The notes under the pieces were generated by a model, which was not told where the DNA came from, searched no databases, and saw nothing but the letters and a program-made list of their open reading frames with translations. Positions 55,428 through 56,539 of a DNA stretch of 64,000 bases are shown piece by piece. Numbering within the stretch: position 1 is the first letter of the stretch; every line of letters starts with the position of its first letter. The DNA comes from Neofusicoccum parvum (taxonomy: Eukaryota; Ascomycota; Dothideomycetes; Botryosphaeriales; Botryosphaeriaceae), in assembly GCA_020912385.1 (NCBI GenBank), contig CP087216.1, positions 1,674,001-1,738,000 on the forward strand. Reading direction: 5' to 3'. Both the position numbers and the translations under genes were made by a program.

Positions 55428-56539
55428 ATGAGCAGCCCCAAGCGGAGGATTGAGACAGATGTAGGTCACACTGCGACTACAGGATTGGAAGAAAGCAAGG
55501 ACTAGGGGCTGACGGAGCACTTGCGCGTCGTGCATACAGGTCATGAAGTACGTGTTGGCTGGCTGGGGAATCACTCTGGTATAGGTAGTTCCTGTCACTA
55601 ACAACTCGGCAGGATGTACGTGGAATCGCCGCTGAGACGCCTCACCGCTGCGGCCTCTGCCCAGACTGTACTGACGCCACGCGCCCAGGCTGATGAGCGA
55701 CTATGAAGTCACTCTCGTCAACGATAACAGTGAGCATCCTTAGCGCTCGTGGCAGCGCCATCGTTCGCGATGTTTTCGCATTCTGACGGTGTCGCGCAGT
55801 GTCCGTTCCCGACCCAGGCCCCCGAGAGGCGCAAAGGCGACGCGCAGCAGGACTGACGGACGATGCAGGCAAGAGTTCTACGTGCGGTTCAAGGGACCGG
55901 AAGAGAGTATGGACCTGTTATATAGAATCTCGCACACTGCTGCGCCCCGTGAGTCCTGCTTGTTAACTTTTCGTGTGTACTGCAGCTCCCTTCGCCGGTG
56001 GTCTGTGGAAGATCCACGTCGAGCTTCCCGACCAGTACCCGTACAAGAGCCCCAGCATTGGCTTCGTGAACCGCATCTTCCACCCCAATATCGACGAGTT
56101 GTAAGCCTGCCCATTTGGCTAGCGCCGTCGGGACTTTTCGCTGAGAGCCGCCATGAACAGATCCGGCTCCGTTTGCTTGGACGTCATCAATCAGACCTGG
56201 TCGCCCATGTACGACATGATCAACATCTTTGAGGTCTTCCTCCCGCAGCTTCTGCGCTATCCGAACCCCACGGACCCGCTGAATGGCGAGGCGGCTGCTC
56301 TGCTCATGCGCGAACCGAAAAGCTACGACGCCAAAGTCAGAGGCATGTACACTGTGGCAGACATGAAGCAAGACCCCAGGATCTAATACGTCTACACAGA
56401 GTACGTGAACAAGTACGCCTCCAAAGAAGCCGCAGACGACGCAGACGAGGACAGCGACGAAGAGGACGAGATGAGCTCAGTCGGCAGCTACGAGTCAGGA
56501 GAGGACGAGGAGCCGGCAGGCAACATGGAGGAGATCTGA
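55428..56539 (+). CDS. UBC8: UBC8/UBE2H-type ubiquitin-conjugating enzyme E2, nine exons including 8-, 3- and 1-nt exons
   Basis: Exons 55428-55460, 55540-55547, 55613-55615, 55689-55729, 55800, 55869-55906, 55986-56100, 56161-56342 and 56400-56539 give 186 aa. The product reads [22 protein letters not shown], then [34 protein letters not shown] with the catalytic Cys at residue 85, [18 protein letters not shown], and an acidic tail ([12 protein letters not shown]). Yeast Ubc8, as I recall its sequence, has KLLMSD, NDSMQEF and Cys85, so both extra Met residues are expected. They are supplied only if a 3-nt exon (GAT) and a 1-nt exon (T) are included. The last intron needs a GC donor (GCATGT). 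Yeast Ubc8 works with the GID/CTLH ligase on gluconeogenic enzymes. Exon assignments beyond the coding match await transcript evidence. Confidence 0.88.
55540..55547 (+). other. UBC8 8-nt exon
   Basis: GTCATGAA lies between acceptor CATACAG and donor GTACGT. It encodes V-M and two bases of Lys. The flanking introns are 79 and 65 nt. VMK follows ETD in the family, so its inclusion is required. Confidence 0.85.
55613..55615 (+). other. UBC8 3-nt microexon (GAT)
   Basis: Upstream is a complete intron (55548-55612: GTACGT donor, CACTAAC branch, GGCAG acceptor). Downstream is another (55616-55688: GTACGT donor, TACTGAC branch, CCCAG acceptor). Joined as AA|GAT|G it gives AAG-ATG (Lys-Met). Skipping it keeps frame but removes one residue from the conserved VMK-x-LMSD spacing. 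Confidence 0.75.
55800..55800 (+). other. UBC8 candidate single-nucleotide exon (T)
   Basis: Exon 4 ends AAC A (phase 1) before GTGAGC. The next coding block, G CAA GAG TTC, needs two preceding bases. The one base between acceptor GCGCAG (ending 55799) and donor GTCCGT (from 55801) is T, giving A|T|G = Met, the residue expected before QEF. Both flanking introns (70 and 68 nt) have CTGAC branch sites and CAG acceptors; donor GTCCGT is weak. A one-base assembly error is the main alternative. Confidence 0.6.
56343..56399 (+). other. GC-AG intron in UBC8
   Basis: This 57-nt intron has donor GCATGT, a TCTAAT branch and acceptor CACAG. It joins AGA-G|AG-TAC to give R-E-Y-V, matching the family's K-E-Y. 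Using the nearby GT (GTACAC, 56347) would break frame. Confidence 0.78.

Follow-up and report, generated by a model that had tools for sequence, protein, structure and literature searches.

The window, a 64,000-nt stretch of the genome of Neofusicoccum parvum, contains a UBC8 gene at positions 55428-56539 on the plus strand. The gene is modelled with nine exons separated by introns of 57-79 nt (Table 1), and the joined product has 186 amino acids, including Met29 and Cys85. The T at position 55800 is, with high probability, an exon of one nucleotide, predicted from the sequence to be needed for an in-frame product. The GC-AG type of intron 8 is backed by a conserved KVREYV reading. Exon 3, with the three bases GAT, is less strictly required than exon 5, since skipping it leaves the frame unchanged. 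The argument for this exon is conservation, and it looks conserved in the relatives too.

Table 1. Exons and introns of the UBC8 gene model, with the sequences that bear on the predicted 1-nt exon
Feature	Position in window	Strand	Description
Exon 1	55428..55460	+	33 nt, 11 amino acids encoded
Intron 1	55461..55539	+	79 nt, GTAGGT...ACAG
Exon 2, 8-nt micro-exon GTCATGAA	55540..55547	+	VMK also in homologs
Intron 2	55548..55612	+	65 nt, GTACGT...GCAG
Exon 3, 3-nt micro-exon GAT	55613..55615	+	yields Met15
Intron 3	55616..55688	+	73 nt, GTACGT...CCAG
Exon 4	55689..55729	+	41 nt, phase 1, last letters AAC A
Intron 4	55730..55799	+	70 nt; donor GTGAGC, CTGAC, acceptor GCGCAG
Exon 5 (predicted), single nucleotide T	55800..55800	+	middle base of Met29 codon ATG
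Intron 5	55801..55868	+	68 nt; donor GTCCGT, CTGAC, acceptor ATGCAG
Exon 6	55869..55906	+	38 nt, first letters G CAA GAG TTC
Intron 6	55907..55985	+	79 nt, GTATGG...GCAG
Exon 7	55986..56100	+	115 nt
Intron 7	56101..56160	+	60 nt, GTAAGC...ACAG
Exon 8	56161..56342	+	182 nt, carries Cys85
Intron 8, GC-AG type	56343..56399	+	57 nt, GCATGT...ACAG
Exon 9	56400..56539	+	140 nt, acidic tail and stop codon
Predicted spliced junction including T	55729/55800/55869		AACGATAACATGCAAGAG
Direct join without T	55729 to 55869		AACGATAACAGCAAGAG
Assembled sequence, opposed to an assembly error			AACAGTGAGC

The product fits the Ubc8/UBE2H class, with near full-length structure alignments and a cysteine at the active-site place. 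Yeast Ubc8 (PDB 8pmq) matches residues 1-181 with E=1.7e-70 and without gaps around Met29, and human UBE2H (2z5d) matches residues 3-157 (6.1e-66) with its active-site cysteine aligned. The sequence-only reading of this DNA had named a methionine at this place in yeast Ubc8, and 8pmq indeed reads INDSMQEF, with the methionine at the same place and spacing as Met29. That reading had also put the catalytic cysteine at position 85, as in yeast. The first half of this claim holds for the product, while the deposited 8pmq chain has a lysine opposite Cys85 and hence gives no view of the yeast cysteine. Met29 is not universal in the family, since human UBE2H (8pjn, 2z5d) has a leucine at this place and one residue fewer in that part of the protein. 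Over residues 44-186, the product shows 100% identity with annotated proteins of Macrophomina phaseolina and Botryosphaeria dothidea.

Between exon 4 and exon 6, the protein cannot be obtained by the simplest routes. As had been proposed from the letters, read-through from exon 4 runs into a stop (AAC AGT GAG CAT CCT TAG), and a single splice from 55729 to 55869 leaves out the T, shifts the frame and then meets stops. The proposed layout of the gap is also borne out, with two introns of 70 and 68 nt, a CTGAC in each, and the T between them, which completes Met29. A single base is thus flanked by a YAG acceptor on one side and a GT donor on the other, each intron is of normal length and has a branch site, and both the frame and the conserved protein need the T. 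A pseudogene with a frameshift at the exon 4/6 junction would also explain why the plain single-intron model is frameshifted. It has next to no probability, as the reading frame is open and conserved in all the remaining eight exons, the arrangement is common to relatives, and no second UBC8 copy was seen in the genome (18 contigs, 44 Mb), where the next-best matches were other E2 genes that were only 29-45% identical.

Introns of at least 30 nt with GT-AG, GC-AG or AT-AC borders were enumerated from exon 4 to exon 6, singly and paired. The frame is kept, with both conserved flanks, in 11 one-intron and 35 two-intron parses, and NDN-M-QEF arises from only one of the enumerated parses, 55730-55799 / T / 55801-55868. 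One-intron parses of the window reproduce two annotation errors of the relatives, NDNKFYV and NDNSEQEF. In 20,000 dinucleotide shuffles of the gap interior, scored with a pattern that was set post hoc for the already known site, YAG-T-GTNNG[TC] with an upstream CTRAC was seen in 2, and in 8 when the exon base was left free. Omitting the branch site raised the number to 78 of 20,000, and the bare motif YAG-N-GT is common, as it was present in 2337 of the 20,000 shuffles. On both strands of 290 kb of this genome, YAGTGTNNG[TC] occurs 22 times, and with an upstream CTRAC it occurs once, at 55800 itself.

To compare the junction with that of other fungi, we used three protein searches, each with more than 5000 matches, of which the best 120 were considered. 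Together, they yielded 290 distinct 90% clusters: 2 from plants, which were left out, 7 from Lipomyces and Saitoella, 56 without an NCBI source, and 225 with an NCBI source, two of which (P0029 and P0203) contain jgi or lgn sequences too. The assignment of the 225 listed clusters to Pezizomycotina was taken from the names shown, five of which were checked, and Saitoella belongs to Taphrinomycotina according to a taxonomy look-up. Searches for the DNA of the relatives gave no UBC8 match in viral contigs or plasmids, and three distant prokaryotic loci of 28-35% identity in genome contigs. The comparative layout was inferred from the annotated proteins by degenerate back-translation, with the T imposed in the search pattern.

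Among the matches listed, the Met29 junction is intact in all seven outgroup proteins (Lipomyces and Saitoella), and an exact M[QS]EF is read in 53 of the 56 clusters without an NCBI source. Leaving out five on longer or unstated contigs, 51 of these proteins come from contigs of at most 3 kb, which are judged to be transcript-like from their size and intact frame, carry no cDNA label, and are probably transcripts of relatives, none of them known from this species. M[QS]EF is present in 49 of the 51; the exceptions are P0176, in which the second intron is read through, and P0240, which starts at Met29. The frame of P0176 (a 1.4-kb contig, jgi) is Fusarium-like, opens within a match to the second intron of F. 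flagelliforme and continues into QEFF, and this contig is possibly an intron-retaining transcript. In P0268, located on a 128-kb contig (lgn), the UBC8 frame is unbroken from MSD on, which suggests that intron-poor genomic copies of UBC8 exist, in an organism with few or no introns in that stretch of the gene.

The annotated proteins give a different count, with M[QS]EF in 16 of the 225 listed NCBI clusters when counted strictly, four more annotations that read NDNSMQEF standing outside this count, and M[QS]EF in 6 of the 160 annotated clusters first listed by searches that score only after residue 43 or 49. These numbers are not misannotation rates, because wrong models are over-represented in 90% clusters, where right ones merge and may sit behind a jgi representative. 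The 16 correct annotations may reflect good gene models or local intron loss. Other junctions were scored in the same listed matches, for the 225 annotated clusters and the 56 without an NCBI source, respectively: 224 and 55 are intact at exon 7/8, 208 and 49 at exon 8/9, 165 and 55 at exon 6/7, and 46 and 49 in the region of the 3-nt exon. The exon 8/9 pattern serves as a control within Pezizomycotina only, since it fits just one of the seven outgroup proteins. Start-codon errors add to the wrong annotations, as the end of exon 4 is absent from 52 of the 225 listed annotations. Around the 3-nt exon, 39 of the 225 read VMK-LMSD, as if from a skipped exon, and 22 read VMK-M.., of which 21 have MY or MC, as AT/GTAYG or a similar sequence yields.

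Gene callers that miss an exon of one nucleotide restore the frame by running on into an intron, so that intron sequence has leaked into the annotated proteins. A serine follows NDN in 52 listed proteins, as the first donor A/GT (AGT) yields, although other serine codons are also possible. At the other end of the exon, T/GTNNG fits 25 of the 27 listed proteins that read NDN-M.., 19 of them with a valine as GTNNGT yields; the share expected from composition is 0.094, which corresponds to a binomial P of ~7e-24, uncorrected for kinship. Exon 6 is skipped in 18 listed annotations, a site inside CAAG/AG is used in 11, and the whole second intron, of 57-63 nt, is apparently retained in three listed models. 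A further 21 listed annotations belong to the class "other", and nine read NDN-R. An arginine stands in place of Met29 at the right length, NDN-R-[QS]EF, in seven listed annotations (P0015, P0031, P0037, P0070, P0084, P0106, and P0223), for which a caller artefact and a real 1-nt exon G (AGG) are the candidate explanations.

Another 19 listed proteins contain NDN-S?-QEF, which fits a first donor slid by 4 nt. The same slide could be real rather than a mistake, in which case a single GC-AG intron of 135 nt (55734-55868) would give NDN-SE-QEF, a protein that is one residue longer, and no 1-nt exon would be required. This is one of the in-frame one-intron parses, the gene already has one GC-AG intron, and two listed annotations read SEQEF (P0049 and P0103). 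However, S?QEF is found in none of the 51 listed proteins from contigs of at most 3 kb, a slide of +4 is a simple frame rescue for a gene caller at a GTRAGT donor, and the GTGAGC donor, the CTGAC and the CAG/T/GTCCGT would all be purposeless, which makes the GC-AG intron very unlikely compared with the 1-nt exon.

In 11 listed proteins, a longer peptide of the form S...R is placed between NDN and [QS]EF. Six of the 11 imply a gap of at least 81 nt, and all six parse as GTNNG..CTNAC..YAG/T/GTNNG..CTNAC..AG. These clusters are from Parastagonospora nodorum, F. flagelliforme (two), F. pseudograminearum (two) and F. culmorum. Each of the six peptides allows YAG-T-GTNNG at exactly one place, with splits in the relatives of 47+1+55, 47+1+52 and 49+1+56 nt, and after shuffling, 14, 4, 6, 50, 45 and 37 peptides per 1000 passed for the six cases (0.4-5%). 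The other five S...R peptides are uninformative, because gaps of 58-79 nt are too short for two 40-nt introns.

These leaks also bear on an error in the assembly, or a real deletion of one base, whereby the true sequence would be AACAT/GTGAGC..., with a single standard phase-2 intron of 140 nt. ATG would likewise result from one additional T beside 55729, and the 25 relatives with NDN-M.. read A-T-GTNNG, which, taken alone, is compatible with a contiguous AT/GT. Against this, there is no homopolymer at the site, an inner AG/T/GT accompanied by donor and branch site seldom arises by chance (2 of 20,000 shuffles), and the relatives show A/GT-type leaks (52 and 19 proteins) as well as whole gaps in Fusarium and Parastagonospora. 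A private assembly error is insufficient, since the relatives leak the same layout, and we regard an assembly error or deletion as extremely unlikely.

The leaks are distributed over several classes. A taxonomy look-up places P. nodorum in the Dothideomycetes and F. flagelliforme in the Sordariomycetes, the slid first donor is read out in Tuber indicum of the Pezizomycetes (P0103), and P0270 from Lasallia (Lecanoromycetes) reads MYM, one of the two methionine cases without a strict T/GTNNG fit. Both donor types leak within Fusarium, and both leak across the pair A. tamarii and A. flavus (P0066 and P0289), two species of section Flavi. In Aureobasidium pullulans, P0097 has a first-donor-like and P0091 a second-donor-like leak. 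The sequence-only reading had suggested comparing the same introns in related species; the leaked intron sequence in annotated proteins reveals the same layout in orthologs indirectly, and appears to fit it fully in two classes and partly in others.

These results suggest that a 1-nt exon between two complete introns is very probably an anciently conserved feature of UBC8. The layout appears to be common to much of Pezizomycotina, with many published gene models that appear to be wrong at the 1-nt exon, and from the annotated proteins we infer an origin in or near the Pezizomycotina ancestor. For N. parvum itself, the splicing is predicted from the sequence. It is conceivable, though rather unlikely, that the 1-nt and 3-nt exons originated in the Pezizomycotina ancestor and that the 1-nt exon has been retained since then as a strictly sequential splicing step, perhaps because slow or fallible removal determines the amount of Ubc8.

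According to the proposed mechanism, two complete short introns of U2 type (70 and 68 nt) would divide the Met29 codon as A/T/G. Introns 4 and 5 each have their own donor, branch site and acceptor, and could thus be recognized across the intron. PMC5639578 describes splice sites in Pezizomycotina as pairing by such intron definition, under which the length of the exon should matter only through steric overlap. The stretch CAG/T/GTCCGT is common to the first acceptor and the second donor, which makes simultaneous occupancy unlikely and points to removal of the two introns one after the other; sequential removal, as proposed earlier, is a reasonable expectation. The upstream intron 4 would most likely be removed first. 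By consensus, GTCCGT is not a strong donor, and the usual consensus before a donor is (C/A)AG, to which CAT is nearer than AGT. Removal of intron 4 would turn AGT into CAT before the weak GTCCGT donor, which argues for this order.

UBC8 is a conserved fungal gene, and its 1-nt exon is apparently present in tractable moulds, so that it could serve as a genetic system for how the spliceosome handles two introns that are one base apart. Gene models could be corrected across the subphylum, as Met29 is misread in 209 of the 225 listed NCBI clusters. Since gene callers mend the frame in other ways, the case also suggests that tiny fungal exons have been overlooked.

Stwintrons had been suggested as the mechanism. 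In a stwintron, as defined in PMC5639578, one of the splice elements of an external intron (donor, branch site or acceptor) is split by an internal intron, and for UBC8 this would mean the excision of all 139 nt. The likeness lies in two short back-to-back introns and in sequential splicing, which is also expected here, and stwintrons are known in Pezizomycotina, where some are conserved over several classes (PMC5639578). They differ in that their splice motif is interrupted and nothing is left in the mRNA, whereas the motifs of UBC8 are complete and one base would stay. The two donors and the two acceptors all stand intact, and excision of the whole complex breaks the frame, so that the stwintron explanation does not fit the definition and is hardly credible as an alternative to a retained T.

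In the literature found, exons of one nucleotide are described in three other nuclear genes, the plant genes APC11 (PMC4674806) and VPS55 (PMC8831610) and CYP621A of Fusarium (PMC12940212). The sequence-only reading had cited the great rarity of such exons and a plant precedent; the APC11 case stands, and the Fusarium case provides a fungal precedent that is also in print. The CYP621A paper presents its case as the second such example, and as the first from a fungal gene, and VPS55 is one further plant case beyond that count (PMC12940212; PMC8831610). In our search, in which subscription journals were mostly outside the scope, no title or abstract opening naming a 1-nt exon of UBC8 was found. 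We take the UBC8 exon to be a new case of such exons, notable for its breadth.

Like UBC8 as modelled here, APC11 is a ubiquitin-pathway gene with a constitutive 1-nt exon, and the frame is lost if the base is deleted; its exon differs in that it is from Arabidopsis, consists of an A, is placed 333 nt after the upstream exon, and was tested with transfected reporters (PMC4674806). The exon of VPS55 is similarly deeply conserved and absent from reference annotations, but belongs to land plants, occurs in forms with and without the exon, and is supported by RNA-seq and RT-PCR (PMC8831610). The CYP621A exon shares with that of UBC8 its presence in a fungus, a mid-codon base in a conserved motif, the arrangement AG/N/GT, a gap of 139 nt in F. 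graminearum, a frame that needs the base, and gene models that are mostly wrong. It differs in that the base is a G (AGGGT), that the orthologs are from one genus, and that 18 RNA reads confirm it (PMC12940212). In UBC8, by comparison, the base is a T, the gene encodes a conserved E2 enzyme, and the support comes from the protein sequences of several classes.
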